Assembly (NCBI GenBank): GCA_030041005.1
Contig: JASHOR010000114.1
Coordinates: 1-62,678 of the forward strand
Length of the DNA: 62,678 nt
Direction: 5' to 3'
Source of the DNA: Xanthobacteraceae bacterium
GTDB taxonomy: Bacteria; Pseudomonadota; Alphaproteobacteria; Rhizobiales; Xanthobacteraceae
The first letter of the stretch is position 1. Every line of letters starts with the position of its first letter. Position numbers and translations under genes: made by a program. This document shows, piece by piece, positions 4,236 to 57,745 of the stretch. Below the pieces are notes generated by a model that saw only the letters and a program-made list of their open reading frames with translations, was not told the origin of the DNA and did not search any database.

Positions 4236-4313
4236 CTCGTGTGGCGGTTCAGAAGTCCGCATCATTCCTGCCGCGGGCTCGTCATGCGGATTTCTGAACC
4301 AAAGCCACACGAG
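4236..4313. repeat. Type B hairpin repeat (reverse orientation)
   Basis: This 78-bp imperfect palindrome has matching outer arms (CTCGTGTGG against CCACACGAG) and inner arms (GTTCAGAAGTCCGCAT against ATGCGGATTTCTGAAC). The loop region has CCTGCCGCG. The same module occurs at 44308-44385 and 57668-57745 in the opposite orientation. It lies in the 337-nt gap upstream of ccmI. No protein is encoded. 'Type B' is my label. Confidence 0.85.
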
Positions 4314-4417
4314 ATCAATAAGTTGCTGGTGTCCTTCGATTCAGAAGTCCGCATTATTCCTGCCGCGACCTCGTCATGCGGAGTTCTGAACCAAAGCCAC
4401 ACTAGATCAATAAGTTG
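4314..4417. repeat. Hybrid A/B hairpin repeat with linker
   Basis: The linker ATCAATAAGTTG joins the preceding B module to a second unit. The first bases of that unit (GGTGTCCTTCGATTC) match the end of a type A repeat. It then switches to type B (AGAAGTCCGCAT through GCCACACTAG) and is followed by the same ATCAATAAGTTG linker again. The switch point lies in sequence shared by both families. Read as a recombinant mosaic unit. The rest of the gap (4177-4235 and 4418-4513) shows nothing recognisable. Confidence 0.75.
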
Positions 4418-4513
4418 TAACCCTGAAGCGACCGCATCGGTCAGCAGTTACATCACGGCAAGAATGCGGCTGCAATGGGAAGGCCGGCGCGGCAATTGCG
4501 CGCTGAAATTCCA

Positions 4514-5983
4514 TCATTCGCTGAACGCTCGGACAGGCGGTTTTGCGTTCCAGACGCCCTGCCGTTCGCTCGACAACTCCACCCGCGCCGCCACATCGGC
4601 CGCTTTGGTCAACAACGCGGCGTAATCGGCCCCGAACATGGCCCGGCAAAAACGCACTGCGGCGTCGAACTGCGACTGCCGGAATGGCCGCTCGGCTTCC
4701 TGCGCATGGCGCAAGGCATCGAGCAGGATTCTCGTGCTCATTTCCAGGCATTGCGTCAGGTCGGAATAGGTGCGCCTGGTCACTTCGCTGACCGCGAATT
4801 CCCCCGCGTAATGGCGGCAGACGCCGACCAGCTCCACCCGCGTTTCGACCTCTTGCACGTCGGCGCAATCGAGCAGCGACCCGGGGGCGATCTCCTTGGC
4901 CGGGTGCGGACGCAGCAGCCGGCGGACACGGCCCGTCGTGGTCTCCAGCTCCCCCGTCAACACGTTCGACACGGCGGTGCGGATCGCAGCGGTTTGGCGG
5001 CTCCACGTCGAATCGACGGTAAGGTCCATCTCCGTGCGCATGCCGCGCAAGGCATCGTGCAGGCTTTTGAGCAGCGAGGCGACCGGCCGGCCGGCTTTCA
5101 CCTCGGTGCGCAGCTCGCCCACGGCGCATTCGAGATCGTTGAGCGCAATCGTGACAGCCGCCGCATACGGCGTTGCTGCGACGCGCTCGACGAGATCGCT
5201 CCCCGCCGCGCGCGTGGCGAGACGAATGAGCTGCCACGGCGCCGCCAGCCGGTTGGACAGCATGATCAGCCCATAGAGGACGAAGTCGGCCTTTTGCGGA
5301 GCGGAATGCTGGAGCGATTTTTGCGCGGACACGGCCTCGAAGTCGGCCATGGCCTGATCGATCTCGCGTTCAAACGCACGAATGCGCGGCGGCAGCCGCA
5401 ACGCCAGTTCGCCGAGCTTTTCGCGACAGCGCAAAACGCCCGCCAGCGTCGTCACGTCGTCGACCGCGCGGGGCGTGCCCACCTCCACGCAAAACCGCCG
5501 GTGGTCTTTGTCATCCCCCGCCAGCGACGCGATGGCATCCATCAGGCGCTGGGCCGCACGATCGTGCAACGCGCAAACCAATTGCTCCACTTTGACGTGA
5601 TCTTCCCCAAGCAAGGCGCGATTGATGTCCTCCCTCAAGGCTTTCGCCAAGGCCGGCATCAGATCGCGCCCAATCCATTCCCAGATCGGCTCCAACGAGA
5701 CGCGAGCCAGGCGCCCGATGCGCTTGTGATCGGCGGGCGCGTCGATCAGAAACGGCTCAAGCGGCGTAAAGAACCGGCGCGCCGCATCGCCGATCCGGGG
5801 CGCAGGCTGCGAGCCGGCACGGATCGTGCGGCGCAATTCCTGCAGCACCAGTTCGGTCGTGCCGATGTCCTCGTCGCGCAGCAGGGCGCGTTCGAGTTCG
5901 GCGATCAGCATCGATCGCGCTTGCGGCGAAAGGGACTGCAGATATTCGTGCAGCCGCTCGACGGATGAGCCATCGCCCGGCAT
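4514..5983 (-). CDS. Conserved hypothetical protein, 489 aa
   Basis: I do not recognise this protein. It is soluble, rich in Arg, Ala and Leu, and apparently almost all alpha-helical, with no signal peptide, TM helix or obvious catalytic motif. The N-terminus (VERLHEYLQSLSPQARSMLI) reads like a short helical domain. Several later helices are amphipathic. Codon use matches the neighbours, so it is probably a native gene. ATG at 5983 is used; a GTG at 5989 would add two residues. It is separated from ccmI by the repeat-containing gap and transcribed alone. Confidence 0.75.
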   Translation of the reverse strand: MPGDGSSVERLHEYLQSLSPQARSMLIAELERALLRDEDIGTTELVLQELRRTIRAGSQPAPRIGDAARRFFTPLEPFLIDAPADHKRIGRLARVSLEPIWEWIGRDLMPALAKALREDINRALLGEDHVKVEQLVCALHDRAAQRLMDAIASLAGDDKDHRRFCVEVGTPRAVDDVTTLAGVLRCREKLGELALRLPPRIRAFEREIDQAMADFEAVSAQKSLQHSAPQKADFVLYGLIMLSNRLAAPWQLIRLATRAAGSDLVERVAATPYAAAVTIALNDLECAVGELRTEVKAGRPVASLLKSLHDALRGMRTEMDLTVDSTWSRQTAAIRTAVSNVLTGELETTTGRVRRLLRPHPAKEIAPGSLLDCADVQEVETRVELVGVCRHYAGEFAVSEVTRRTYSDLTQCLEMSTRILLDALRHAQEAERPFRQSQFDAAVRFCRAMFGADYAALLTKAADVAARVELSSERQGVWNAKPPVRAFSE

Positions 5984-6330
5984 TGGCACACCGCTTTTAG
6001 CTGGACCGCAAAGCTCCTGCTTAATCTCGCGGCGCTTAAAAAGCGGTTACGCTGCCTGTCGCAAATTGACGGTGGTCGAGGCCGACAGCCGACCATGGAT
6101 CGCCGCAGCCATTTGGCCGCATTTGGTTTTTCGGCGCCGGGGGACAGGCGATACCGGGAGCCGGCCAGGCGATCGGTCTCACATCGCCTGAACCGGTCCG
6201 CGACCGGACATTGCATTGCCCGCGCCAGGGCCGCTATCTAAGGTATCGCATCTCAAGCGAGATTTGGGGCGCCATCACTCGCGCCGGCCGTAGCGGCAAC
6301 GGCGTCCGCGGACACCAACGAGGAGACGTT
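5984..6330. other. Intergenic region without a recognised gene
   Basis: This 347-nt gap separates two divergently transcribed genes (4514-5983 minus, 6331-7329 plus), so it must contain both promoters. I could not pick convincing -35/-10 boxes, a hairpin terminator or a conserved small ORF. The short ORFs in it have poor composition and look like shadows. Confidence 0.5.
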
Positions 6331-7329
6331 ATGCGGGGCTACTCACGTCGACAGATGCTGCGCACAAGCGGAGGACTGATGCTGGCGCTCGGCGCCGCGC
6401 CGCTCGGCTCCGCGCTTGCGGCGCAGGACGAGGATTATCCGAATCGCGCGGTTAGGATCGTGGTGCCGTATCCTGCCGGCGGCACCGCTGATGTCATGCC
6501 GCGCATCCTCGCCCAACGGCTGGCGCCCAAATGGGGCCAGCCGGTGATCATCGAGAACCGTACCGGCGCCGGCGGCAATATCGGCGCCGAAGTCGTCGCC
6601 AAGGCCGACCCCGATGGTTACACGCTGCTCGCCTCGCCGCCCGGCCCGCTGGTCATCAACCAGAATCTTTATCGGCACCTCGCCTTCGATCCGCTGCAGT
6701 TCGTGCCGATCGTGGTCATGGGTCACGTGCCGAATGGGCTCGTGGTCAATCCCGACAAGATCAAGGCCGATACTGTCAAAGATTTCATCGCCTACGCCAA
6801 GGCGAAGAATGGCAGGGTGACGGACGCTACCCAAGGCAACGGCACCACCTCGCAACTGACCTCGGAATTGTTTCAGCTCATGGCGAAGGTCAAGCTGCAG
6901 AACGTGCCCTATCGCGGCTCGGCCCCCGCGCTCGACGACCTGATGGCCGGCAACGTCGACTGCATGTTCGATAATATCGGCGTGTCGATGCAGTTCGTGA
7001 GGGCCGGCAAGCTGAAACTGCTCGCGGTGGCCTCGCCCAAGCGTGTGAAGTCGCTGCCAAACGTTCCCAGCATCGCCGAGACCCTGCCCGGCTTCGCCTC
7101 GGTGACCTGGTTCGCACTGGTCGCGCCGCCAAAGACTCCGAGCGCAATCGTCGACAAGATCAATGCCGCGGTGAACGAGGCGCTGCACGATCCCGACGTC
7201 GTCAAACGCTTTGCCGCCTTGTCGGCGGAGCCCGCCGGCGGCACGCCGCAGGCGACCGCCGCCTACTTCGACGACGAGGTCGAGCGATGGAAGAAAGTGA
7301 TTGTCGAAGCGCACGTCACGTTGGATTGA
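6331..7329 (+). CDS. Tripartite tricarboxylate transporter (Bug-type) substrate-binding receptor 1
   Basis: Extracytoplasmic solute receptor of the TctC/Bug family, which captures small carboxylates or related compounds in the periplasm. The 332-residue product starts with a twin-Arg-like signal (SRRQMLRTSGG then a hydrophobic stretch ending in SALAAQ), followed by the family hallmark PNRAVRIVVPYPAGGTADVM and the GAGGNIGAEVVAKADPDGYT segment. The start at 6331 has GGAG 6 nt upstream. No TctA/TctB membrane genes are nearby, so it is an orphan receptor. The ligand cannot be inferred. It is probably co-transcribed with the next two genes. Confidence 0.93.
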   Translation: MRGYSRRQMLRTSGGLMLALGAAPLGSALAAQDEDYPNRAVRIVVPYPAGGTADVMPRILAQRLAPKWGQPVIIENRTGAGGNIGAEVVAKADPDGYTLLASPPGPLVINQNLYRHLAFDPLQFVPIVVMGHVPNGLVVNPDKIKADTVKDFIAYAKAKNGRVTDATQGNGTTSQLTSELFQLMAKVKLQNVPYRGSAPALDDLMAGNVDCMFDNIGVSMQFVRAGKLKLLAVASPKRVKSLPNVPSIAETLPGFASVTWFALVAPPKTPSAIVDKINAAVNEALHDPDVVKRFAALSAEPAGGTPQATAAYFDDEVERWKKVIVEAHVTLD

Positions 7330-7336
7330 GCGCACC

Positions 7337-8338
7337 ATGCAGACGAAATCGGACGCGCCGCACCGCGCGTTGAGAGCCCGAATGCCGACCGCAGCTATCG
7401 CGGTCGCGGCGCTCCTTTGCGCCGCCCCTTCCAGCGCCAACGCCGCTCCTTATCCCACCCATCCGATCAGGATGGTGGTCGGCTTTCTCGCCGGCGGACC
7501 GACCGACATCCCGGCCCGCTTCATCGCCGATCGCTTGAGCACGCAGCTCGGCCAGAAGGTCTATGTCGAGAACAAGCCAGGCGCCGGCGGCATGATTGCC
7601 TTAAACGACGTGCTGGCGCAGCCGCGCGACGGCTACAGCCTGTCGTTCTGCACCTATTTCGACGCGATCAATACGCTGCTTTATCAGAACGTGTCGTACA
7701 AGCTGAGCGACATCGCGCCCATCACGATGGTGTCGAAGTATTACTATCTGGTGGGACTCGCCAAATCGGTTCCAGTCAACAATTTCAGTCAATTCGTCAG
7801 CTACGCCAAGGCGCATCCCGGCGATATTCTTTACGGCACGGTCGGTGCCGGATCGACGCAGGAGCTGATCGCGCACGAACTGGAAAAAACCGCCGGCATC
7901 AAGATGACCAGGGTGCCGTTCAAGGGCGCCAACGAGATCACGCAGGAAATGCTGGCCGGACGCGTCCATTTCCAGGTCGGGCCGCCCATCGCCATCGGGC
8001 CCTACTACAAGAGCGGCAAGTTGAAGGTGCTGGCGACCACAAGCCCGGAGCGGCTGACAAGCTTTCCCGACGTGCCGACCTTGACCGAACTGGGTTATCC
8101 GCTGACGCCGTATGGCTGGCTCGGCGTCTGCGCCGGCGCCGGCACGCCGAAGCCGATCATCGACCTGCTCAACCGGCACATCGTGTCGATCACACGGTCG
8201 GACGAATACCGGCAATTCATGGAAAAGACCGGCAATATACCGGTCGCCATGACGCCGGCCGAGTTCGGTGGCGCCATCGTCCAAACCGTCAAGGATGCGG
8301 CCCCCACCATCCGCGAATTCCACATGCAAATCCAGTAA
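7337..8338 (+). CDS. Tripartite tricarboxylate transporter (Bug-type) substrate-binding receptor 2
   Basis: A second receptor of the same family directly follows the first, 7 nt after its stop. The 333-residue product has a signal peptide (AAIAVAALLCAAPSSANA), then YPTHPIRMVVGFLAGGPTD and the GAGGMIALNDVLAQPRDGY segment. An alternative ATG at 7382 has a better purine-rich upstream stretch and would leave a shorter signal. The two receptors are clearly related but divergent, so they probably bind different ligands. The gene ends 4 nt before the MetE-like gene. Confidence 0.92.
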   Translation: MQTKSDAPHRALRARMPTAAIAVAALLCAAPSSANAAPYPTHPIRMVVGFLAGGPTDIPARFIADRLSTQLGQKVYVENKPGAGGMIALNDVLAQPRDGYSLSFCTYFDAINTLLYQNVSYKLSDIAPITMVSKYYYLVGLAKSVPVNNFSQFVSYAKAHPGDILYGTVGAGSTQELIAHELEKTAGIKMTRVPFKGANEITQEMLAGRVHFQVGPPIAIGPYYKSGKLKVLATTSPERLTSFPDVPTLTELGYPLTPYGWLGVCAGAGTPKPIIDLLNRHIVSITRSDEYRQFMEKTGNIPVAMTPAEFGGAIVQTVKDAAPTIREFHMQIQ

Positions 8339-8342
8339 GCCC

Positions 8343-9491
8343 ATGAAACACAGCACCGATCGTATTCTGACCACTCACGCCGGAAGCCTGCCGCGGCCGG
8401 CCGACCTGCTTGCGCTCGCCGAGCGCGAGGGTCCGAAGGCGTTCGACGCCCCGGCGGCGGCAATACAACTGCGCGCCGACGTCGCCGGCGTCGTGAAGAA
8501 ACAGGTCGAACTCGGCATCGACGTGATCGACGACGGCGAATACGGCAAACCGAGCTTCGTCAGCTACATCAACGAGCGGCTCGGCGGTTACGAACTCGAC
8601 ACCGCGGCCGGACCGCGCAACCAATGGGCCACGTCGCGCGAAGGACTGTCGTTCCCCGAGTTCTACGCGCAGACCCACGCCGCTTCGCGCCACGCGCACA
8701 TGGTCTGCACCGGACCGATCACCTACAAGGGACAGGCCCGGCTCAAGCGCGACATTGACAACTTCAAAGCCGCGCTCGACGGCGTAAAGGTCGAAGAGGC
8801 CTTCATGCCGGCGATCTCGCCGTCCAACATCGAGGATTGGCAGCGCAATGCCTTTTACAAGACCCAGGAAGAGTACGTCTTCGCGATCGCCGAGGCGATG
8901 CGCGAGGAATACCGCACCATCGTCGACGCCGGCTTGTTGGTGCAGATCGACGATCCCCGGCTCGTCACCTATTACATCATCCATCCCGAAGCGAGCGTCG
9001 CCGATTGCCGCAAATGGGCGGAAATACGGGTCGCGGCGCCCAATCATGCGCTGCGCGACATCGCGCCGGAAAAGATCCGCTTCCATACCTGCTACGGCAT
9101 CAATATGGGACCGCGCATCCACGACATGGAGCTGAAGGACATCGTCGACATTATTCTGAAAATCCGCGCCGGAGCCTATTCGTTCGAGGCCGCCAATCCG
9201 CGCCATGAGCACGAATGGAAGGTGTGGAAAGACGTCAAGCTGACGGACGGGAAAATTCTGATCCCGGGCGTGATCTCGCACTCGACCGTGCTGGTCGAGC
9301 ATCCCGAGCTTGTCGCCCAGCGCATCGTGCGCTTTGCCGATGTGGTCGGACGCGAGAACGTCATCGCCGGCTCGGACTGCGGCTTCGCCACCTTCGCCGG
9401 ATCGAAGGAGGTGCACCCCTCGATCGTGTGGGCGAAGTTCAAGGCGCTCGCCGATGGCGCGCGGATCGCTTCGAAGGAGCTGTGGGGCTGA
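8343..9491 (+). CDS. Cobalamin-independent methionine synthase (MetE) C-terminal-like methyltransferase
   Basis: A 382-residue protein with the UROD/MetE-like TIM-barrel fold. The zinc ligands expected of the family are visible as His248 and Cys250 (FHTCYGINMG), Glu282 and Cys346 (GSDCGFATF). It lacks the MetE N-terminal barrel. Single-barrel relatives include alkyl-transfer enzymes such as epoxyalkane:coenzyme M transferase, so homocysteine methylation is not assured. It starts 4 nt after the receptor gene, which suggests use of an imported methyl or alkyl donor, but that is inference. Confidence 0.85.
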   Translation: MKHSTDRILTTHAGSLPRPADLLALAEREGPKAFDAPAAAIQLRADVAGVVKKQVELGIDVIDDGEYGKPSFVSYINERLGGYELDTAAGPRNQWATSREGLSFPEFYAQTHAASRHAHMVCTGPITYKGQARLKRDIDNFKAALDGVKVEEAFMPAISPSNIEDWQRNAFYKTQEEYVFAIAEAMREEYRTIVDAGLLVQIDDPRLVTYYIIHPEASVADCRKWAEIRVAAPNHALRDIAPEKIRFHTCYGINMGPRIHDMELKDIVDIILKIRAGAYSFEAANPRHEHEWKVWKDVKLTDGKILIPGVISHSTVLVEHPELVAQRIVRFADVVGRENVIAGSDCGFATFAGSKEVHPSIVWAKFKALADGARIASKELWG

Positions 9492-9512
9492 AGCGGCAGC
9501 GGATAAGAGCGA

Positions 9513-11589: not shown

Positions 11590-11604
11590 GCCGACAAATC
11601 TCCC

Positions 11605-11949: not shown

Positions 11950-11971
11950 GTTTCGACCTAAAATTGGTGGC

Positions 11972-27815: not shown

Positions 27816-28020
27816 CTTTTCGTACTATTTTGGCCGCCCCGTGGGCACGGTGCAAGCGATAATTGCGGCTCTCTCGATAATGACTTGTAAAAGCTGCGTT
27901 ATTCGTCTCCGGCGGGCGCGAAGCGGCAGCCGGCAGGGTGGGCACTAATTGACGCTGACAGGTTGATCCGACCAGGCCTGCGCGACGGACGTTGCCGAAC
28001 ACCTAGCGATCGGCCTATCT

Positions 28021-28094
28021 AGTGAAGCGGATTTGACATTCGCTACCCCCAAGCCGCTAGGTCTTGAAGCGAGTGTCAAATCCAGAGCTCCACT
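28021..28094. repeat. Type D hairpin repeat
   Basis: A 74-bp palindrome with arms GGATTTGACATTCGC and GAGTGTCAAATCC, outer arms AGTGAAGC and GCTCCACT. Related copies lie at 40288-40365 and 44148-44222. It is followed by a conserved spacer beginning GCACTT and then a type C repeat. 'Type D' is my label. Confidence 0.85.
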
Positions 28095-28112
28095 CGCACT
28101 TGGTAGTCGCTG

Positions 28113-28182
28113 GTGGTCCTTTGATTCCAACATGCGCACGAGGGCGTGCCGAGACGGGATGCGAATGTTGGAATCGGACCAT
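28113..28182. repeat. Type C hairpin repeat
   Basis: A 70-bp palindrome with arms TGGTCCTTTGATTCCAACAT and GATGCGAATGTTGGAATCGG plus the closing ACC. Related copies lie at 40379-40463 and 44401-44470. It is 74 nt upstream of the superoxide dismutase start and could form a hairpin in the leader if the promoter lies upstream of it. The rest of the 441-nt gap (27816-28256) shows nothing else. Confidence 0.85.
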
Positions 28183-28256
28183 TAGTAGGAACTATTCCGT
28201 CATTCCACCCGTTTCACCGACAACCCCGCTTCCGCTTCAGATTGAGGAGTAGACCA

Positions 28257-28859
28257 ATGGCATTCACGCTGCCCGAACTTCCCTATCCGTATGACGCATT
28301 GAGCCCGCACATGTCGCGCGAGACGCTCGAATTTCATCACGACAAGCACCATCAGGCCTACGTGACGACCGGAAATAACCTCGCCAAGGGGACGGAGTGG
28401 GAAAACAAGCCGGTCGAAGAGGTCCTCAAGGGCACGTTCGGCAAGATTCCGGGCCTCTTCAACAATGCCGCGCAGCATTACAACCACATTCATTTCTGGA
28501 AATGGATGAAGAAGGGCGGCGGTGGCGAGAAACTTCCCGGCAAGCTGGAAAAGCAGCTCACCGCCGACGTGGGGCCGCTCGCAAAGGTCAAGGAAGAATT
28601 CGCGCAAGCGGGAGCGACCCAATTCGGCTCAGGTTGGTGCTGGCTTGCCGTCAAGGACGGCAAGATCGTCGTCATGAAGACGCCGAACGGGGAAAACCCG
28701 CTGGTGCACGGCGCCAAGCCAATCCTCGGTTGCGACGTATGGGAGCATTCCTATTACATCGACTACCGTAATCGGCGGCCCGATTATCTCAAGGCGTTCC
28801 TCGACCACCTGGTGAATTGGGACTACGTGGCGGAGATGTACGAAGCGGCGATGAAATAG
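28257..28859 (+). CDS. sodB: Fe/Mn superoxide dismutase
   Basis: Converts superoxide to hydrogen peroxide and oxygen. The 200-residue product shows the metal ligands His27 (EFHHDKHHQAY), His77 (YNHIHFWKW), Asp160 and His164 (CDVWEHSYYIDY). The start at 28257 has GAGGAG 8 nt upstream. It has no signal peptide, so it is cytoplasmic. The metal (Fe, Mn or either) cannot be decided from sequence alone; the gene symbol is by similarity. A terminator follows. Confidence 0.95.
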   Translation: MAFTLPELPYPYDALSPHMSRETLEFHHDKHHQAYVTTGNNLAKGTEWENKPVEEVLKGTFGKIPGLFNNAAQHYNHIHFWKWMKKGGGGEKLPGKLEKQLTADVGPLAKVKEEFAQAGATQFGSGWCWLAVKDGKIVVMKTPNGENPLVHGAKPILGCDVWEHSYYIDYRNRRPDYLKAFLDHLVNWDYVAEMYEAAMK

Positions 28860-36407: not shown

Positions 36408-36410
36408 TCA

Positions 36411-36459
36411 GAGCATGATCCGGAAAAGTGGAAACCGGTTTTCCGAAAAGATCATGCTC
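36411..36459. repeat. Palindromic intergenic repeat of the common Hyphomicrobiales type
   Basis: A 49-bp palindrome: GAGCATGATC at the left pairs with GATCATGCTC at the right, and the inner arms CGGAAAA and TTTTCCG surround GTGGAAACCGG. This element is familiar from many Bradyrhizobium and related genomes and differs completely from types A-D in this window. It sits between the DUF1236 gene and the convergent ABC permease gene. Confidence 0.85.
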
Positions 36460-36488
36460 CACCAAAATCCTAGAAGGCCAATTGCGCT

Positions 36489-39843: not shown

Positions 39844-40305
39844 ATGACCCGCATCGGCAAGATCAGCGCCGGGCTGCTGGCATTTCGTCGCAGCAACGGG
39901 CTTGAAGTCCTGCTGGCCCATCCCGGCGGACCGTTCTGGGCCAAAAAAGATGATGGCGTCTGGACCATCCCCAAGGGACTGGTCGAGCCGGGAGCCGATT
40001 TGTTAACGACCGCGCGGCGCGAATTCATCGAGGAGACCGGCCTCACACCGGCCGGCGAATTCATCGACCTCCCGGCGGTCAAGCAGAAAGGCGGCAAAGC
40101 GGTCCACGCTTGGGCATTTGAGGCCGATTTCGATCTCGCCCTGTTTGCCAGCAATACCTTCGAGATCGAATGGCCGCCGAAATCCGGACGGCGGAAAGCT
40201 TTTCCCGAGATCGACCGGATCGCCTATTTCGCGCTGCCGGTCGCCGAGACCAAGATCCTGGGTTATCAGCGCCCCCTGCTGCAGGCTCTGGTGGAGCGGA
40301 TTTGA
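39844..40305 (+). CDS. Nudix hydrolase
   Basis: A 153-residue Nudix protein. The Nudix box is present and complete: Gly45, Glu48 and the REFIEETG core (GLVEPGADLLTTARREFIEE). It probably hydrolyses a nucleoside diphosphate-linked substrate; the WTIPKG motif before the box is common in diadenosine-polyphosphate-type relatives. The last six codons and the stop lie inside a type D repeat (40288 onward), so the repeat determines the C-terminus. The 271-nt gap upstream holds no clear feature. Confidence 0.92.
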   Translation: MTRIGKISAGLLAFRRSNGLEVLLAHPGGPFWAKKDDGVWTIPKGLVEPGADLLTTARREFIEETGLTPAGEFIDLPAVKQKGGKAVHAWAFEADFDLALFASNTFEIEWPPKSGRRKAFPEIDRIAYFALPVAETKILGYQRPLLQALVERI

Positions 40306-40365
40306 CATTCGCGACCCGGAAGCCGCCAGCTCGTGAAGCGAATGTCAAATCCAAAGCTCCACCAG
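40288..40365. repeat. Type D hairpin repeat overlapping the Nudix gene end
   Basis: A 78-bp palindrome with outer arms CTGGTGGAGC and GCTCCACCAG and inner arms GGATTTGACATTCGC and GCGAATGTCAAATCC, the cleanest type D copy in the window. It supplies the stop codon of the Nudix gene. The same GCACTT-type linker follows, then a type C repeat. Confidence 0.88.
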
Positions 40366-40378
40366 CACTTAATCCTTG

Positions 40379-40463
40379 CTCGTGGTCCTTTGATTCCAAC
40401 ATTCGCACAAGTGGGGAGACCGGAGGCCGAAATGGGATGCGAATGTTGGAATCGGACCACGAG
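40379..40463. repeat. Type C hairpin repeat
   Basis: An 85-bp palindrome, arms CTCGTGGTCC and GGACCACGAG outside, GATTCCAACATTCGCA and TGCGAATGTTGGAATC inside. It ends 27 nt before the stop codon of the convergent glutathione transferase gene, so it fills the space between two gene ends and could serve as a two-way terminator. Confidence 0.88.
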
Positions 40464-40490
40464 TGGAGCATTCGCTACCTCCTGAGCGGC

Positions 40491-41174
40491 TCACTCCCGA
40501 AGGACTTGCGGCCAGTCTACTTCGTCGTGCGACAGCACCCACGGCTCGCCACGCGCGGCGTCGCGCCATTCGGCCATGGCCGGCAATGCCATGACCGCAC
40601 GCATATAGGCGCGGGCGCCCTCACTCACATCGACGGCGTAGGTGTGAAAGCGCCAGACGACCGGGGCGTACATGGCGTCGGTCGCTCCAAATGCGCCGTA
40701 CAGGAACGGGCCGCCGGCACCAAACCGCGCGCGGCATTCGGCCCAGATTGTGTCGATCCGCGCGGCATCGGCCGCCGCGTCGGCGTCGAGGGCGCGCGCC
40801 TTCACCGGCCGTCGCACGTTCATGGGCAGATGACGCCGCAGTCCCATAAAGCCCGAATGCATTTCCGCCGCTGCCGCGCGGGCATGGGCACGCGCGCTCT
40901 CCGCCGCCGGCCACAAGCCGGACGCGGGAAATCGTTCCGCCAAATATTCGAGGATTGCCAGCGATTCCCAGACACGAACATCGCCGTCGATCAGCATCGG
41001 CACCTTGCCCGGCCCGCCGCCTCCGCTCAGCGCCAGCACCTTGGCCCTGAAATCCGCGGCATCGAGCGAAACCAATGTTTCGTTGAAAGCGATCCCGGCA
41101 ACCTTCATCGCGAGCCAGGGCCGCAACGACCAGGAGGAATAATTCTTATTGCCGATGATCAGACGGAGCGGCAT
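40491..41174 (-). CDS. Glutathione S-transferase family protein
   Basis: A 227-residue GST-like enzyme: thioredoxin-like N-terminal domain (LRLIIGNKNYSSWSLRPWLA, then GKVPMLIDGDVRVWESLAIL, with the cis-Pro and the Glu-Ser glutathione contacts) and an all-helical C-terminal domain. The KNYSSWSLRPW segment is typical of a bacterial subgroup sometimes annotated as YfcF-like. Substrate unknown. Conjugation or peroxidase roles are both possible. Confidence 0.9.
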   Translation of the reverse strand: MPLRLIIGNKNYSSWSLRPWLAMKVAGIAFNETLVSLDAADFRAKVLALSGGGGPGKVPMLIDGDVRVWESLAILEYLAERFPASGLWPAAESARAHARAAAAEMHSGFMGLRRHLPMNVRRPVKARALDADAAADAARIDTIWAECRARFGAGGPFLYGAFGATDAMYAPVVWRFHTYAVDVSEGARAYMRAVMALPAMAEWRDAARGEPWVLSHDEVDWPQVLRE

Positions 41175-41337
41175 GCAGTAACCCCAACCCCCTGCGGGAA
41201 AAGGGAGTTATATCCGCTCGCGGCCTGTGTCACGCTTCAATATGATTCCTGCTCGCAGCCGATCGCGCGCGGCACGACCGGGCATCGGGTCCGATGCGGC
41301 GGCCTTGGCGCGGCAATCCTGTGATCCGCGCTCCCCG

Positions 41338-43387: not shown

Positions 43388-44089
43388 TCAGTCCCGTTTC
43401 TGCCGCCACGCGGCGTAGCGCGCCTTGGCGTCTTCATTCGGCGGGTAAAGGCCCGGCAGCTTCACGCCCTTCTCGACTTCGCTGAACACCCAGCTTTCAT
43501 AGAGTTCGTGCTCGGCGCCCTCGTGGGCGGCGAAGGCGACGAGGTTCTGCGGAATGACGACTGCGCCGTCGTCGTCGGCAACGATCACGTCGCCGGGAAA
43601 AATGGCGCAGCCGCCGCAGCCGATCGGCTGCTGCCAGCCGACGAAAGTCAATCCGTTGACGGAAGCCGGCGCCGCAACGCCCGCGCACCAGACCGGCAGC
43701 GCGCTGGTCAGCACGCCGGCGCGGTCGCGCATGACCCCGTCGGTGACCAGCGCCGCGACATTCCGCTTTTTCATCCGCGCACAAAGGATGTCGCCGAAGA
43801 TGCCGGCCGTGGGCACGCCCATGGCGTCGGCCACCGCGACGACGCCCTCCGGCATGTCCTCGATCGCCGCCCGCGTCGAGATCGGATGCGCCCAGCTTTC
43901 CGGCGTCGCCAAATCCTCGCGCACCGGCACGAAGCGCAGGGTGAATGCCGGGCCGACGATGCGCTCGCCCTTGGCGACAAGCGGTTTTGGACCGGTCATC
44001 CAGCAGCGCCGGATGCCCTTCTTCAGCAGCATCGTGGTGATGGTCGCCGTTGTCACCTTGCGCAGAACGTCAAATGTCGTATCGCTCAT
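43388..44089 (-). CDS. RraA-like / HMG aldolase family protein
   Basis: A 233-residue protein of the RraA fold, which includes 4-hydroxy-4-methyl-2-oxoglutarate aldolases, oxaloacetate decarboxylases and RNase E inhibitors. The active-site region FGDILCARMKKRNVAALVTD then GVMRD has the metal/substrate residues of the aldolase-type enzymes (Gly-Asp and Arg...Asp). It is longer than E. coli RraA and resembles the catabolic members. Specific substrate unknown. Confidence 0.85.
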   Translation of the reverse strand: MSDTTFDVLRKVTTATITTMLLKKGIRRCWMTGPKPLVAKGERIVGPAFTLRFVPVREDLATPESWAHPISTRAAIEDMPEGVVAVADAMGVPTAGIFGDILCARMKKRNVAALVTDGVMRDRAGVLTSALPVWCAGVAAPASVNGLTFVGWQQPIGCGGCAIFPGDVIVADDDGAVVIPQNLVAFAAHEGAEHELYESWVFSEVEKGVKLPGLYPPNEDAKARYAAWRQKRD

Positions 44090-44147
44090 GGCCTGTCTCG
44101 ATCGAAGGGGACGATGAAATAATCATACCGGCTTGATTCCGCGATCC

Positions 44148-44222
44148 AGTGGAGCGGATTCGACATTCGCTACCCCCAAGCCATTCGCTCATCAAGCGAA
44201 TGGCAAATCCAAAAGCTCCACT
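44148..44222. repeat. Type D hairpin repeat (left outer half of a nested cluster)
   Basis: A 75-bp palindrome with arms AGTGGAGC and GCTCCACT and inner arms GCGGATTCGACATTCGC and GCGAATGGCAAATCC. It is joined directly to a type A repeat through the junction CACTAG, whereas D copies elsewhere are followed by a type C copy after a GCACTT linker. Confidence 0.88.
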
Positions 44223-44293
44223 AGTGTCCCGATTCCGAAGTTCGCATCATTATGCGGCACCCTCGTTTGCGAACTTCGGAATCGAAGGACACT
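44223..44293. repeat. Type A hairpin repeat
   Basis: A 71-bp palindrome with arms AGTGTCC and GGACACT outside, GATTCCGAAGTTCGCA and TGCGAACTTCGGAATC inside. A second copy lies at 57583-57653. The linker GGCAACTTATTGAT leads to the next type B module. Confidence 0.88.
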
Positions 44294-44307
44294 GGCAACT
44301 TATTGAT

Positions 44308-44385
44308 CTCGTGTGGCTTTGGTTCAGAACTCCGCATGAGGAGGTCGCGGCAGGAATGATGCGGACTTCTGAACCGCCACACGAG
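44308..44385. repeat. Type B hairpin repeat
   Basis: A 78-bp palindrome with arms CTCGTGTGGC and GCCACACGAG outside, GTTCAGAACTCCGCAT and ATGCGGACTTCTGAAC inside. It is followed by the GCACTT linker that elsewhere joins type D to type C. Confidence 0.88.
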
Positions 44386-44400
44386 CACTTATAGTTGCCA

Positions 44401-44470
44401 GTGGTCCTTTGATTCCAATATTCGCACGAAGGCGTGCCAAAAAGGGATGCGAATGTTGGAATCGGACCCC
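44401..44470. repeat. Type C hairpin repeat (right outer half of a nested cluster)
   Basis: A 70-bp palindrome with arms GTGGTCCTTTGATTCC and GGAATCGGACC. Its last base is the first base (on the + strand) of the stop codon of the downstream aminotransferase, whose gene ends at 44470. No other feature is present in the 380-nt gap 44090-44469. Confidence 0.88.
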
Positions 44471-45645
44471 TAGCCTTTGAGCCAAACGCCGATCCGTTCG
44501 ACCGCCTCACGGATATCCGGCGCGGAGCCCGCGTAACACAGGCGGACGAAATTGCTGCCGCGCAGCGGGTCGAAATCGATGCCGGGAGTGACGGCCACGC
44601 CCGCCTGCTCGAGCATTCGCTTGGCGAAATCGTGACTGTCGGCCGAGAAACGCGACACGTCGGCATAGAGATAGAATGCGCCGTCGGCGGGCAGACAAGA
44701 ATCGAGTCCGACCGCGGGCAGGCTCTCAAGCAGAAAGCGCCGGTTCTCCTGATAACCCCGTTTGATCGCGTCCAGCTCGGCACGGCCGTCGAAAGCCTCC
44801 TGCGCGGCGATCTGCGACAGTGCGGGCACGGAGATGGCCAGATTCTGCTGCAGCCGTTCGACCGCCCGCACCAGTGGCGTCGGCACCACCATCCAGCCGA
44901 TCCGCCAGCCCGTCATGCAGAAATATTTGGAGAATGAGTTGATGATGATCGCATCCGAGGTCAGCCGCGCGGCGGTCTCCGCCGCGAAAGCGTGATCGAG
45001 GCCGTGATAAATCTCATCGGATATGATGGCGATGCCGGCATCCTCTGCACAGCGAACGACATCGGCGAGCGCCGATGCGCTCATCATCGTGCCGCTTGGA
45101 TTGGCCGGCGATGCCAGGACGACACCCCGCAGCGGCCGGATCCGGTGTTGGGCGAGAAGGCTCTCGCCGGTGATGGCCCAGCGAGTCTCGGCGCTCGTCT
45201 CTATGCCGACCGCTTCGCAACCGAGCGCGCTCAGTATGTGGCGATAGGGCGGATAGCCGGGAAGCGCCACGGCAACCCGGTCGCCCGCTTCGAACGCCGC
45301 CAGGAAGGCCAGGATGAAGCCGGCCGAAGAACCGGTCGTGACCGCGATCCGCTCGGCGTCCAGATCGAGGCCGTGCCACTCGCGATAAGCGCGCGCGATG
45401 CGGCGGCGCAGCGACGGCATGCCGAGCGTCTCGGTATAGCCGATCGTGGCGTCGGACAGCGCCGCTCGCGCCGCAGCGATGGCGCATGCCGGGGCCCCTG
45501 CCGCCGGCTGTCCGACTTCCATATGGATGATGCGGCGGCCCTGCGCTTCGAGCCGGGCGGCGGCCGACATCACATCCATCACCATGAACGGCGGCACGCC
45601 GCTGCGCGCGGAAGGTCGTATGAGGCGCTTCGCCTTGTCGAGCAT
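44470..45645 (-). CDS. Pyridoxal-phosphate-dependent aminotransferase, class I/II
   Basis: A 391-residue fold-type I aminotransferase. The PLP Lys is in NSFSKYFCMTGWRIGW, the substrate Arg near NFVRLCYAGS, and the Asp/Tyr of the cofactor site in ISDEIYHGLDH. It looks like an aspartate-, alanine- or valine-type transaminase; the substrate cannot be told. The stop codon touches the end of a type C repeat. Confidence 0.93.
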   Translation of the reverse strand: MLDKAKRLIRPSARSGVPPFMVMDVMSAAARLEAQGRRIIHMEVGQPAAGAPACAIAAARAALSDATIGYTETLGMPSLRRRIARAYREWHGLDLDAERIAVTTGSSAGFILAFLAAFEAGDRVAVALPGYPPYRHILSALGCEAVGIETSAETRWAITGESLLAQHRIRPLRGVVLASPANPSGTMMSASALADVVRCAEDAGIAIISDEIYHGLDHAFAAETAARLTSDAIIINSFSKYFCMTGWRIGWMVVPTPLVRAVERLQQNLAISVPALSQIAAQEAFDGRAELDAIKRGYQENRRFLLESLPAVGLDSCLPADGAFYLYADVSRFSADSHDFAKRMLEQAGVAVTPGIDFDPLRGSNFVRLCYAGSAPDIREAVERIGVWLKG

Positions 45646-47420: not shown

Positions 47421-47422
47421 TC

Positions 47423-49795: not shown

Positions 49796-50014
49796 GAACG
49801 GGAAACCTGCTGGGCGCTCTTGCGTTCAAGACGATTAAAATCTTCGACGAAATACGGTTTGCGAGCCGTTAACTTCGGACGGCGTGAAACAAATATCCAG
49901 CGCGTGCGGCGGCGCGCGGTAACTCCAGGCGGAGTCAGACAAGATAACCCGCGCAAGGAACGAACGATGGCGGACCACTTGCGGCGCGCGCCCGCAGCCG
50001 GCTAAACGGGGAGC

Positions 50015-50689: not shown

Positions 50690-50734
50690 GCGTTTGGAAC
50701 GCCGCCCGGATTGCGGCTTGACGCCCGCCTTGTC

Positions 50735-51724: not shown

Positions 51725-51860
51725 TTCCCTGTGCCCGTCCGGTTAACAGTTCGATTGCGGCAATTCCAGGGATCGATCGCCAGAACACACGTCTCGGGGA
51801 GCCTGAGCCCATGCCCCGCCGACGATTCGCGCAAGGGAAATCCAGGCTGCTGCCGGTTGC

Positions 51861-52277: not shown

Positions 52278-52438
52278 CGTCCGTCGTCTGGTCTTTCAAC
52301 CTGTGCTTGGCCTGCGGATTTCGCAGCCGGATTACGAGCTACATGCCATCGTGGCGCCGGGCTGTCCAGCGTGCAATGGCGCGAACCCGCCGCAGGAGGC
52401 GCGCGTTTTCTCTTGTGTTTATCGCTATAGTTCCGGGC

Positions 52439-53572: not shown

Positions 53573-53587
53573 GATGCGGCGGACCAC

Positions 53588-53893
53588 TCAACCTTTGACG
53601 CGAGCCGGGTCCAATAGTGCGGCGACAATTGCCGCCCATTCGGCGGCAAGGTCGCCGCCCGCCGGTTTCCGGCGCGCCTGCCGATACCAGTAGCGGGCGT
53701 TGTCGTGGTCGCCCTCCATCCGGTGCAGATAGGCGTGAACCCAGGCGCTGTCGGCGTCGTTCGCCGCCATGACGAGCTTATGCGCCTTGTCCCAATCGGG
53801 TTTTCCCGCCCACCACAACGCAGCAAGTGCAGGCGAAAGACCATCCGGCGGCATTGCATCGGTGAGCGAGCGCTTGAATGCGGCCGGCGTCAT
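53588..53893 (-). CDS. Small conserved hypothetical protein, 101 aa
   Basis: A small helical protein (LSPALAALWWAGKPDWDKAH, DADSAWVHAYLHRMEGDHDN, ARYWYRQARRKP). The aromatic helix pairs resemble half of a TPR-like fold, but I cannot assign it to a family. It lies 12 nt after the gatA stop on the same strand and could be the last gene of the gat operon. Confidence 0.75.
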   Translation of the reverse strand: MTPAAFKRSLTDAMPPDGLSPALAALWWAGKPDWDKAHKLVMAANDADSAWVHAYLHRMEGDHDNARYWYRQARRKPAGGDLAAEWAAIVAALLDPARVKG

Positions 53894-53905
53894 CGGAGCG
53901 ATCCG

Positions 53906-55381
53906 CTACCACCATTTCTCCGGCATGAACGATCCGGCAGCCCGCTCGATTGACGCGCCGAGCGCGAACAGCGTCTCCTCGTCGAACGGCCGGCCGATCA
54001 GTTGCAACCCGAGCGGCAACCCTTGCGAGTCGAGCCCGGACGGCACCGAAATGCCCGGCAGTCCGGCCATATTCACGGTCACCGTGAAGACGTCGTTGAG
54101 ATACATATCGACCGGATCGGCGCGGCCCATTTCGCCGACGCCGAACGCCGCCGACGGGGTTGTCGGCGTCAGGATGGCATCGATGCCTGCCGCAAAGCAG
54201 CGTTCGAAGTCGCGCTTGATCAGCGTGCGCACCTTCTGCGCCTGCAGATAATAGGCGTCGTAATAGCCGGCGGAGAGGACGTAGGTCCCGACCATGATTC
54301 GCCGTCGCACTTCCTTGCCGAATCCGGCCGCGCGGGTCTGTTCGTACATATCGAGCAGGTCGCGGCCGGGCACCCGCAAGCCGTAACGGACGCCGTCATA
54401 GCGCGCGAGATTGGAGGAGGCCTCCGCCGGCGCCACGATGTAGTAGGCCGGCAGCGCGTATTTCGTCATCGGCAGCGAAATTTCGACCGTCTCCGCTCCG
54501 GCCTCTTGCAGCCATTGCGCGCCGCGCTGCCACAGCGCTTCGATCTCCACGGCCATGCCGGCAACGCGGTACTCCTTGGGGATGCCGATGCGCTTGCCCC
54601 TGACCGAGGCGCCCACCGCCTTCTCATAGTCGGGCACCGGCAGATCGGCACAGGTCGTATCCTTGGCGTCGGAACCCGCCATCGAGCGCAACAGCATCGC
54701 GCAGTCGCGCACCGTGCGGGCAAGCGGCCCGGCCTGATCGAGCGATGACGCGAACGCCACGGTGCCCCAGCGCGAGCAGCGGCCGTAGGTCGGCTTTATT
54801 CCGACGATGCCACAGAACGCAGCGGGCTGGCGGATCGAACCGCCGGTATCGGTGCCGGCGGCGCCGATGCACAGGCGGGCTGCGACCGCCGCAGCCGAGC
54901 CCCCCGAGGAACCGCCGGGAACGAGCGGCCGCTCGTCCCCGCGCCGGCGCCACGGCGATAGCGCCGCGCCGAAAAAAGACGTCTCGTTCGACGACCCCAT
55001 GGCGAATTCGTCGTTATTGGTCTTGCCAAGCAGCAAAGCGCCGTCGCGCCACAGATTGGCTGTGACGGTCGATTCGTAGGTCGGAACGAAATTGTCCAGC
55101 ATGTGCGCGCAGGCCGTGGTGCGCACGCCGGCGGTGCAGAACAGATCCTTGATCCCGAGCGGCAAACCTTCGAGCGGGCCGCCCTCGCCTTTGGCAAGCC
55201 GGGCGTCCGACGCCCGCGCCATGACGCGGGCACGATCCGGAGTTTCCAGGACGAAAGCGTTGAGCCTGCGTCCCCGCTCCATCGCGGCAAGATGCGCCTC
55301 GGCAAGTTCGACTGCGGAGAACTCCCGCTTGCGCAACGCCTCGCGCGCTTGCGCCAGCGTGAGCGAGGTGAGATCGGTCAT
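53906..55381 (-). CDS. gatA: Asp-tRNA(Asn)/Glu-tRNA(Gln) amidotransferase subunit A
   Basis: Amidase subunit of GatCAB, which converts Glu-tRNA(Gln) and Asp-tRNA(Asn) to the amidated forms. The 491-residue product has the Ser-cisSer-Lys triad Lys78 ([10 protein letters not shown]), Ser158 ([11 protein letters not shown]) and Ser182 ([13 protein letters not shown]), at the usual spacing. Length is standard. gatC and one small ORF precede it on the same strand; gatB is outside the window. Confidence 0.96.
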
Positions 55382-55455
55382 CTAAAGAAAATTCCGCTCG
55401 ACTTGATCCGTCATTGCGACCGGCGACTGTAACTCCAGTGCGGCTTTTGGAGTTC

Positions 55456-55731
55456 CTATTGCTGTTTGCGGCCTGGCTGCAGAACTTGCAAATCAGCTTG
55501 CAAATCAGCCGCGTTGGCCGTGGGATCGTCGCAGGAAAACCGATCGCCTGGGGCAACCTGTGCCGATTCGTTCGCGGCCTCTTCAGCCGGCCTTTGCCGC
55601 ATCGGCACCGGCTGTACCGGAAACGAGCCGAACAGCGCTTCGATCGCCGCCGGATCGTCCTGTTTCAACAGGCCGCGGCTCTCAAGATAGGCGAGCCAGA
55701 TCGCATCTTGTTCACAGGCGAGACACATCAT
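55456..55731 (-). CDS. Small Cys-containing protein between gatC and gatA
   Basis: A 91-residue protein starting [20 protein letters not shown]. The ATG at 55731 overlaps the gatC stop (ATGA), and a second ATG follows at 55728, so it is translationally coupled to gatC. The first half is structured with a CXXC pair near the start; the second half is low-complexity ([19 protein letters not shown]). The CXXC could bind metal. I do not recognise a family; its position inside gatC-gatA is the main clue. Confidence 0.65.
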
Positions 55732-56015
55732 TCCACCACTTTCGGAACGACGAAGAAGCAATCTTCGCGCGCCGGCGCATTTTGCATGACGGCATCAACA
55801 ACCGCTCCATCGGTGATCCGATCACTGCGCATCTTCATCGCCATCGGCGTGACCGACGTCATCGGCTCGACGCCGTCGACGTTCACCTCGCGTAGCTGCT
55901 CGACGAACGCGAGTATCCCGTTGAGTTCGCCCTGCAGAGCCGCCACCTCGTCCTCGGAAAGCGAAATCCGCGCCAGATGCGCCACGCGCCGGACGGTCTC
56001 GGCATCGACAGACAT
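55728..56015 (-). CDS. gatC: Asp-tRNA(Asn)/Glu-tRNA(Gln) amidotransferase subunit C
   Basis: The small subunit of GatCAB that stabilises GatA. The 95-residue product matches GatC throughout: [55 protein letters not shown] and the C-terminal [18 protein letters not shown]-like end ([17 protein letters not shown]). The start at 56015 gives the standard length; an upstream extension is low-complexity. It leads the gatC-orf-gatA order. Confidence 0.96.
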
Positions 56016-56145
56016 GAGCGGCAAGCCTGCTGCGGGTTCACGCCATGAAGGTCCGCCTATAGCAGAGGCATGTTGATGCGCCAATAGAGGCTGAGGCGAG
56101 ATCTGGGACGCGATCTTGGGGCGCGATCCGGCGCGGCCCGCCGCC

Positions 56146-56577
56146 TCACCGCGAGGACGCCGTCGCCGCGGCAAGCTGCCGCCTCAGCGTCCGCACCTCC
56201 TCGAACCGCTTGCTGACGTCGCGCATGATGGCGACCAGCCCCACCATGCGGCCGTCGCTGCGCAGCGGAGCAATGGTGAACTCGACCGAGATGGTGGCGC
56301 CGTCCTTGCGCAGAGCCGGGACCGCGAGCACGTCCGCCTCGCCATAGCGGCTCTTGCCGGAGGCCATCACCCGTCGATAGCCGCCCCAATGGCGTTGCCG
56401 CAACCGCTCGGGAATGATGAGATCGAGCGTGCGGCCGTTCGCTTCATCGGCGGAATAGCCGAATAAACGGACCGCCCCCGGATTCCAGAAGCTAATCATG
56501 CCGCGCTCGTCGGCAGCGACGATCGCGTCCGAGCTGGAATGCAAAACGGCGTCGGCAATCAGACTGCAAATATCCAT
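56146..56577 (-). CDS. Stand-alone PAS-domain protein
   Basis: A 143-residue protein consisting of one PAS domain ([60 protein letters not shown]) and a C-terminal helix. It lacks a kinase, GGDEF or other output domain. It is the last gene of the haemoglobin/Rrf2 operon, 16 nt after the Rrf2 gene. A sensory role with haem, flavin or gas ligand is plausible, but no ligand residue can be named. The start at 56577 excludes a Trp/Arg-rich extension. Confidence 0.82.
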
Positions 56578-56593
56578 CGCGGCCTGCAATCGG

Positions 56594-57034
56594 CTAAGCG
56601 GCCGGCACGGCCAGAAGGCGCGCCAAATTCCGGCTCGGCCGCACCAAGTCGGCAAGAGTGTACTTGTCGAGCACTTCTAAGAACGCCGCGAGCGCCGTTC
56701 GCAACGCGCCCTTGAGCACGCATGCCGGTTCGATGACGCACTGGCAGTCGTGCTCCTGGAAACACTCAACCAGCGCAAAATCCCGTTCGGTTTGCCGAAC
56801 CAGTTTCCCCAGGCTGAGCTTGGCCGGGTGATCGGCGAGGCGGATACCGCCCCCCTTGCCCCGCGACGTATGCAGGTAGCCGAGCTGGCCGAGGCGGAAT
56901 ACCACTTTCACCAGATGATTACGATTGATCCTATGGTGCTCTGCAATCTCGTCGATGGTGGCCGGTTCGTCGCCTTTGAGGGCAACAAAGATCAAGGCAC
57001 GAAGACAATAGTCGGTGAAAGCTGTCAGGCGCAT
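56594..57034 (-). CDS. Rrf2-family regulator, NsrR-like
   Basis: A 146-residue winged-helix regulator. The Rrf2 start RLTAFTDYCLRALIFVALKG, the wing TSRGKGGGIRLADHP and a cluster of four cysteines, Cys91, Cys97, Cys99 and Cys105 (ECFQEHDCQCVIEPAC), are seen; three of them would hold an Fe-S cluster as in NsrR, the nitric-oxide sensor. The gene overlaps the upstream haemoglobin gene by 10 nt. An NsrR-type inverted repeat lies before the operon. The spacing of the Cys residues differs slightly from E. coli NsrR. Confidence 0.9.
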   Translation of the reverse strand: MRLTAFTDYCLRALIFVALKGDEPATIDEIAEHHRINRNHLVKVVFRLGQLGYLHTSRGKGGGIRLADHPAKLSLGKLVRQTERDFALVECFQEHDCQCVIEPACVLKGALRTALAAFLEVLDKYTLADLVRPSRNLARLLAVPAA

Positions 57035-57459
57035 GCTTTTCCCTTTTGCGCAGCGATGGCGAATTGAAGACTGTCGGCGATCCGACCCGCCCGGTCAACA
57101 AAGTGCGCAGCGGCGGCCGGCGGGCAAACCTCGCGTGCGGTTTCGGCGAACAATCCGAGCCAGCGTTCGAAATGCGCCGTTGCAATGGGGAGCGGCGCAT
57201 GCGCCGCCATTGGCTGACCGTGATAACGCCCGCTCATCAGCACGACCGACGACCAGAAATCGCACATGCGTCCGATATGGGCGTCCCAATCGGCGACATG
57301 GCTCTCGAATATCGGTCCAATAAGCGGATCGTGCCGCGCCCGGCTGTAGAAGCTCCGGACCAGACGCTCGATCATCGCCGCGTCGATGCCGGTGCGTTCG
57401 ACGATATCGGCGACGATCAGATTTCGCCGCTCTGTCGCACTTTGCAGATCCGTGCTCAT
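57025..57459 (-). CDS. Group III truncated haemoglobin
   Basis: A 144-residue globin of the 2/2 (truncated) class, group III. Distinguishing residues are Tyr38 (position B10) in RSFYSRARHDPLIGPIF and the proximal His96 in IATAHFERWLGLFAE. Such proteins bind O2 or NO and are linked to NO detoxification or redox sensing. The start at 57459 gives the usual length. It is the first gene of the operon with the Rrf2 and PAS genes, 49 nt downstream of an NsrR-like site. Confidence 0.94.
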   Translation of the reverse strand: MSTDLQSATERRNLIVADIVERTGIDAAMIERLVRSFYSRARHDPLIGPIFESHVADWDAHIGRMCDFWSSVVLMSGRYHGQPMAAHAPLPIATAHFERWLGLFAETAREVCPPAAAAHFVDRAGRIADSLQFAIAAQKGKACA

Positions 57460-57508
57460 GTTTTTTGGCCCTATGCGCGGACTTCGATTCTGCTGTCGGC
57501 GCTTATAT

Positions 57509-57531
57509 AACATATATATTAAATATATGTT
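57509..57531. promoter_or_regulatory. NsrR-like 11-1-11 inverted repeat
   Basis: A 23-bp AT-only-core palindrome: left arm AACATATATAT, one T, right arm AAATATATGTT, with 10 of 11 arm positions complementary. This is the 11-1-11 layout of NsrR operators in gamma- and betaproteobacteria. It lies 49 nt before the globin start in an otherwise GC-rich region. The region downstream codes for an Rrf2/NsrR-like protein, so autoregulation is likely. Confidence 0.7.
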
Positions 57532-57582
57532 CAATTCAATATCCACGGCTGCCTGCCATTGCCGCTCGGGTCCTGCAAGTCT

Positions 57583-57653
57583 AGTGTCCCGATTCCGAAG
57601 CTCTCATCATTATGCGGCACCCTCGTTTGCGAACTTCGGAATCGAAGGACACC
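57583..57653. repeat. Type A hairpin repeat
   Basis: A 71-bp copy of the type A module: outer arms GTGTCC and GGACAC, inner arms GATTCCGAAG and CTTCGGAATC. The left inner arm is mutated (CTCTCATC instead of TTCGCATC), so the stem is weaker than at 44223. The linker CAGCTTACTGAT joins it to a type B copy. Confidence 0.85.
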
Positions 57654-57667
57654 AGCAGCTTACTGAT

Positions 57668-57745
57668 CTCGTGTGGCTTTGATTCAGAAATCCGCATGAC
57701 GAGGTCGCGGCAGGAATGATGCGGACTTCTGAACCGCCACACTGG
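57668..57745. repeat. Type B hairpin repeat upstream of trmFO
   Basis: A 78-bp copy of the type B module, in the same orientation as at 44308. It ends 11 nt before the trmFO start codon, so the trmFO ribosome site lies at or within its right arm. No Shine-Dalgarno sequence is seen there. Confidence 0.85.

Follow-up and report, generated by a model that had tools for sequence, protein, structure and literature searches.

Why should palindromic modules of several kinds recur in a fixed order, joined by fixed linkers, at five separate places in one stretch of DNA? The question is raised by a 62,678-nucleotide contig of a Xanthobacteraceae bacterium (JASHOR010000114.1, assembly GCA_030041005.1; hereafter the window, meaning the whole stretch), for which a preliminary description made from the letters alone reported hairpin modules of four families, A, B, C and D. 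We checked the unit coordinates and found hairpins at all five loci, as had been claimed. We propose that the modules belong to two composite elements, DC and BA, which are very probably two related families of non-autonomous miniature inverted-repeat transposable elements (MITEs) using terminal inverted repeats of the IS630/Tc1-mariner type. Their kind is known, namely the IS630-type MITE, while their two-hairpin body is unusual, and the DC and BA families are new as far as our literature searches show.

All four families share a common register, which consists of a CTAG-like tetramer, an outer stem of 5-6 bp, an inner stem, a loop of about 20-30 nt, the inner stem again, extra bases, the outer stem and a second tetramer, when each module is oriented so that the extra stem bases fall on its 3' side. 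The outer stems read TGGAGC, TGGTCC, TGTCC and TGTGGC across the four families. Modules are laid out as D>-linker-<C and B>-linker-<A, each about 162 bp long, with linkers of about 12-13 nt (CAACTTATTGAT, and sequences like CACTTATAGTTG). The fixed linkers noted earlier are thus real, but they are longer than the six-letter motifs by which they had first been recognized. The claim that the four families are unrelated did not hold: outer arms are identical at 17 (A/B), 16 (B/C) and 15 (C/D) of 22 positions, and for each of these three pairs none of 20,000 shuffles was as good, while the weaker pairs A/C, A/D and B/D (13, 13 and 12 of 22) were equaled by 7, 20 and 55 of 20,000 shuffles, respectively. 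The outer arms of A, B, C and D are therefore related, which makes D-C and B-A two versions of one two-hairpin element of about 162 bp. What had been seen as parts of a single system do have a common design; however, they are better described as the left and right halves of two related, probably mobile elements that insert into each other.

A further shared trait is a bulge on the inner arm of the hairpin, usually of 2-4 nt. Our arm-pairing analysis, which allowed for unpaired bases solely on the inner, 3' side, found it to be 3 nt long in 131 of 155 D, 106 of 130 C and 50 of 51 A modules, and 2 nt long in 28 of 42 B modules. Most copies preserve this length, while in Aminobacter and Martelella the letters are different.

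The repeats are found throughout the host genome (4.9 Mb in 188 contigs, 95% complete). Allowing at most three mismatches, arm patterns matched 162 times for A, 167 for B and 65 for C, compared to 0, 1 and 0 for the reversed patterns, which shows that the repeats are not due to chance. We take copy numbers from these arm patterns because the BLAST listings scored just 40 of 251 and 40 of 108 candidates. Four profile models applied to the first set of loci, retrieved by composite queries in a way that favors pairs, recognized 155 modules in 67 clusters, of which 25 were D+C- only, 18 were B+A- only, five were BA nested in DC, and 19 were partial, tandem or mixed. We also examined 40 further places, 20 each from the A-arm and C-arm lists and not fetched before, a choice that favors unpaired or odd copies. 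Neighboring A and B modules stood there as B+A- in 16 cases against two in other orientations, and neighboring C and D modules as D+C- in four cases against one; one of the three pairs with another orientation is a tandem junction. A single recognizable module was present in 18 of the 41 clusters. The order B+A- and D+C- prevails, in relatives as well, and the non-random arrangement first noted in the window extends well beyond it.

D-C was detected (E ≤ 1e-5) in 13 of 41 genomes, several of them incomplete metagenome-assembled genomes (MAGs): 12 of 20 of the same genus, including the host itself, 1 of 5 from other genera of the family, and none of 16 from other families. Furthermore, a 21-base D pattern matched at least 118 stretches in named genomes; the hosts among the matches listed include Afipia, Bradyrhizobium, Nitrobacter and Rhodoplanes, MAGs labeled Xanthobacteraceae, Hyphomicrobiales or Rhodospirillaceae, and a few MAGs with other labels. 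D+C- alone made up 66 of the 91 clusters in the first 80 of these at least 118 loci. One locus from a Ruminococcus MAG (L190) was rejected as a bare D-pattern match lacking a module. Aminobacter and Martelella plasmids also yielded DC matches, with 73-77% identity and changes on both arms; when the blastn query came from the host genome or was of BA type, none of the 72,556 plasmid records matched. All four DC boundaries have CTAG as their most frequent tetramer, in the named loci (52, 57, 63 and 56 of 83) as well as among relatives (13, 11, 16 and 16 of 24); it occupies 4 of 4 boundaries in the Martelella DC and 3 of 4 in that of Aminobacter. In the host genome it leads at the two outer DC boundaries only (9 and 8 of 22).

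Several features of these copies are signs of mobility. BA units are alike while their flanks differ, and tandem BA units follow each other with a period of about 161-163, with one tetramer in common. At 44146-44473 of the window, a BA element lies within a DC element. Elsewhere, BA or B alone is inserted in the CTAG of a D loop and has CTAG on both sides (loci L103, L104 and L345), and uninterrupted D loops with a single CTAG provide the empty site for such insertions. The fixed order and linkers thus follow from the inner structure of each element, and the order D-B-A-C from nested insertion. Deletions respect the same ends: seven units shorter than 150 bp (four AB, one AD, one BC and one CD, compared to 36 AB and nine CD of full length in the scan) retain two outer ends, so that the outer ends are what is kept. 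Two of the nine end-to-end units below 150 bp were left out of this count, namely a BB (L318), which forms the B half of a complete BA, and a BD (L338) from a rearranged nested locus. Mixed units such as the D-linker-A of L195, together with L105, L330, L338 and L339, contain BA and DC parts and show that the two elements exchange parts or suffer joint deletions, which suggests common machinery, recombination, or deletion in nested loci. L105, considered as a lone A, proved to be a D-A-linker-B/C recombinant and was not used as evidence for one. The 15 rows of lone arms outside recognized modules in the fetched loci correspond to contig edges, degenerate pieces and weak B-arm look-alikes, and among those rows, which were followed in part, we noticed no gene enclosed by a pair of arms.

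BA and DC carry no transposase gene, as units of about 162 bp (less than 300 bp). A search of the host genome for DDE_3 (PF13358) gave one match, an intact IS630-family gene (NF033545; L251 1369-2532, G000:C183) whose element is bounded by CTAG and adjoins an A module, with one CTAG in common. Searches with this protein and that of a relative (L261) covered the family (198 genomes, 29 with a match) and the order (397 genomes, 30 with a match), and 60 loci were obtained. Terminal repeats were sought independently of the modules, requiring TA but neither the C before it nor the G after it. A TA-flanked terminal inverted repeat was found in 42 of the 60 loci and was not detectable in 18, and the end tetramers were CTAG in 68 of 84 cases. 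Tenzen and Ohtsubo reportedly found in 1991 that IS630 prefers the TA in CTAG.

Moreover, the ends of these IS630 elements resemble the outer arms of the modules. Compared in a fixed register over 22 positions from the base after CTAG, the best match reached 19 of 22 (L256 and L259 versus B), and 12 of the 42 elements reached at least 15 of 22, compared to a mean of 0.009 and a maximum of two with shuffled arms. Three loci (L303, L304 and L311) repeat others (L253, L255 and L272), L282 is a second copy of the L255 element, and 11 of the 12 are distinct. One IS630 group has B-like ends (TGTCCTGAACCAGAAGTTCGC and TGTCCCGAGTCACAAGTTCGC in L256), and another has C/D-like ends that match at 14-15 of 22 positions (L261-L263 and L283; TGGATCGCGTCTGACATTTG and TGGATCGAATCTAACACTTG in L262).

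Each element of about 162 bp terminates in two unlike modules, D and C in DC, B and A in BA, whose outer ends all resemble those of IS630. In the mechanism that we propose, the outer arms would be cut by an IS630 transposase provided in trans. The element would then be pasted into the TA of a CTAG target, leaving CTAG on both sides, with TA as the presumed duplicated bases. After a loop, each outer arm is followed by an inverted copy of itself bearing a short insertion, usually of 2-4 nt, which creates the bulged hairpin; two such hairpins and the linker of 12-13 nt constitute the whole element. Cut-and-paste movement with TA duplication is described for ISY100, a member of the same family as IS630 (PMC2170065).

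Several observations weigh against this mechanism. The IS630 of the host agrees with B at no more than 15 and 14 of 22 positions, and the elements that reach 19 of 22 lie in other genomes. We saw no element in which D and C ends, or B and A ends, enclose a transposase. One genome (G021) has at least 20 DC matches (20 of 65 candidates scored) and no IS630 of this subgroup at E ≤ 1e-40, though another DDE_3 gene is present. Furthermore, the ends of 13 IS630 elements lack an inner inverted copy (best 12 of 20), so that simple loss of the interior of an IS630 does not explain the double hairpin. The left and right tetramers of BA are also often unequal: CTAG/CGAG accounts for 7 of 33, and among 11 BA copies whose left tetramer is not CTAG, none has an equal one on the right, two of the 11 being out of register. 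Plain duplication does not predict such inequality unless CTAG mutates fast. Positions 2 and 3 of the boundary tetramers supply seven of the ten most variable columns of a 169-column BA alignment, in which own-genome copies are otherwise near-identical. CTAG itself occurs 16 times in the window, six of them in modules, compared to 43.7 expected; given this rarity, fast loss of CTAG may account for the unequal tetramers.

The inner arms invite a further and much more tentative suggestion. They could be spare ends, inverted end copies spoiled by an insertion at a fixed place that is kept across genera while its letters vary, to which the transposase would bind without cutting; such decoys could limit transposition and force the two-hairpin unit to move as a whole. 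The bulge may then mark a non-functional end. A bulge-less B hairpin is found alone in a D-loop CTAG (L345), and a BA unit has a bulge-less B (L318). However, another D-loop CTAG holds a lone B that does have the bulge (L104), which counts against this suggestion and implies that the bulge is at most a partial barrier.

The alternative that fares best, although we consider it unlikely, is that selection maintains the hairpins as RNA (3' untranslated region structures, terminators or RNase III sites) or as protein-binding sites in DNA, mobility being secondary. The hairpins are robust: six modules folded singly were more stable than their shuffles (z from -4.0 to -9.3), with no equally stable shuffle among 200 for five modules and one among 200 for the sixth. 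Changes on the two arms also co-vary above the shuffled level in all four families, as measured by double-change cells (163 versus 21 shuffled in C, 186 versus 33 in D, 66 versus 8 in B and, among 51 copies, 29 versus 5 in A). The co-variation favors selection on structure, as do the conservation of bulge length despite the letter changes in Aminobacter and Martelella and the presence of GANTC, the CcrM methylation site, in most B and C modules (64 of 68 and 169 of 176), as in the CIR repeats discussed below; GANTC is rarer in A (12 of 77) and D (28 of 187). On the other hand, both arms are copies of one transposon end, so that co-variation may reflect constraint on that end or template-switch correction. 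Kinship of the copies inflates the counts as well, and many copies are internally deleted or rearranged. Because kinship and a common end sequence may yield part of the co-variation, it is no proof of an RNA role, and transposition by IS630-type ends accounts better for the copies.

Much less probable is that the elements are REPINs or bacterial interspersed mosaic elements (BIMEs), inverted pairs of repetitive extragenic palindromic (REP) hairpins that a RAYT, a Y1 tyrosine transposase, mobilizes in single-stranded form. The outline of a REPIN is matched by two inverted hairpins, a 5' tetramer, a bulge and a high copy number, as far as the available portion of PMC3733652 describes it. However, the module tetramer is CTAG-like rather than GTAG or CGTC and is present on both sides of each hairpin, and the stems measure about 20 bp instead of 5-13. 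Y1_Tnp matches (E ≤ 0.01) occurred in only 5 of 14 genomes, six DC-bearing genomes (incomplete MAGs, 75-95%) had none, and 11 Y1 loci that were fetched had no module within flanks of about 1.5 kb. The only Y1 sequence of the host genome is an IS200-like C-terminal relic, and the match to IS630 ends already disfavors movement by RAYT. Separately, we observed that this IS200-type relic (L063 1606-1830, G000:C30) is followed by a hairpin, which we take to resemble an IS200 right end; no module is present there.

A DDE transposon of the IS5/IS427 type, which likewise targets CTAG, is an equally improbable source of DC and BA as MITEs: elements that we take to be IS5-like from their reading frames do start exactly at module boundary tetramers (L136, L172 and L197), and DUF4096-bearing elements with CTAG ends exist in these genomes (L245 and L246), but the terminal repeats of these candidates (GGCCTGTCCTCAATTGAG and similar) are, judged by eye, unlike the module arms, and these elements look like visitors to CTAG. 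The position of L136, L172 and L197 suggests that other transposons use the repeats as places to land at CTAG.

Within the window, with modules oriented as defined above, the loci read D+C-, D+C-, D+B+A-C- and B+A-, with an A+ followed by a B remnant/A fusion at 4236; positions below refer to the plus strand unless indicated. At the first locus, an A hairpin with flanking CTCG/CGAG (4236-4313) is followed by the BA linker ATCAATAAGTTG, the reverse complement of CAACTTATTGAT (4314-4325), and by a B remnant joined to a second A hairpin with a terminal CTAG (4330-4405), a B/A chimera that would have arisen by internal deletion between two tandem BA units. DC elements occupy 28019-28185 (D 28019-28096, linker 28097-28109, C on the minus strand 28110-28185) and 40288-40463 (D 40288-40365, linker 40366-40378, C on the minus strand 40379-40463). 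In the D-B-A-C locus, the D half of the split DC element (44146-44224) is followed by the BA element inside the DC linker (44221-44385; B 44221-44295, linker 44296-44307, A on the minus strand 44308-44385), by the DC linker thus separated from D (44386-44397), and by the C half (44398-44473, minus strand). The last BA element (57581-57745; B 57581-57655, linker 57656-57667, A on the minus strand 57668-57745) is flanked by a globin-like open reading frame (ORF; 57025-57546, minus) and a GidA-family PF01134 ORF (57757-59133, plus).

The elements of the window sit between or beside genes, including those for a tetratricopeptide repeat (TPR) protein (3070-4200), a glutathione S-transferase (GST; 40491-41174) and an RraA-like protein (43388-44089). 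The called start of a superoxide dismutase ORF (28146-28859) overlaps the DC unit, and the final bases of an aminotransferase gene (44470-45645) overlap the end of the D-B-A-C unit. A Pfam scan of three ORFs that enter modules placed the superoxide dismutase domains outside the module and gave no match for the other two (2794-4389 and 40170-41324), both of which run into modules. A separate palindrome lies at 36410-36460 (AGCATGATCCGGAAAAGTGG...CCGAAAAGATCATGCTC) and is presumably of a kind common in rhizobia; a similar stretch adjoins the D module in L150.

Movement by IS630 transposases would link a two-hairpin repeat that is widespread in Alphaproteobacteria to a family of transposases, and would make it a case in which the control of end choice by MITE structure can be tested. 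In Afipia, Bradyrhizobium and their relatives, the repeat influences where genes border one another, where other insertion sequences land and where assemblies break.

The impression that the set had not been described was borne out: Rfam gave no gathering-score match in the window, and the literature searched, which left most subscription papers outside, holds no description of BA or DC in the parts available (PMC3733652, PMC5082802, PMC2229807, PMC2170065, PMC3189936 and PMC10969869). Among described repeats, as the accessible parts of these sources present them, RUP of Streptococcus pneumoniae, a MITE of IS630-Spn1, resembles BA and DC in being short and non-coding, with IS630-like ends and insertion at TA; unlike them, it is 107 bp long, is grouped with repeats that form a single stem loop from end to end and lack a linker, and has another sequence and host (PMC2229807). 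REPINs and BIMEs with GTAG or CGTC tags, including those of Bradyrhizobium, are likewise inverted pairs of tagged hairpins, often heterodimers, but they have units of 20-40 bp, other tags and a transposase link for GTAG only (PMC3733652). Br-REP1 and Br-REP2 of Bradyrhizobium are palindromic intergenic repeats of the same bacterial group, but their sequences differ from the window modules (best match 12 of 20 and 20 of 40); Br-REP2 is mentioned, with data not shown, as part of a larger undescribed element, without which it was compared here (PMC5082802). As to the RIME/ABC elements of Sinorhizobium, blastn of the own composite, a DC relative and a BA relative, rather than of RIME letters, against the same plasmid records, which include Sinorhizobium, gave no match in that genus. 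CIR repeats of Caulobacter and Brucella were reportedly described by Chen and Shapiro in 2003. They differ from BA and DC in being about 110 bp long rather than about 162, in carrying GANTC at the terminal loop rather than in the stems, as in B and C, and in having no transposase assigned in the part of the source available (PMC2229807). Nevertheless, CIR repeats are alphaproteobacterial and intergenic, with two long hairpins, a linker, terminal TA and internal GANTC (PMC2229807). Two hairpins joined by a linker, with TA at the ends, are also what we found in DC and BA, and by description, rather than by the letters of CIR, these repeats are the closest in architecture to the elements reported here.

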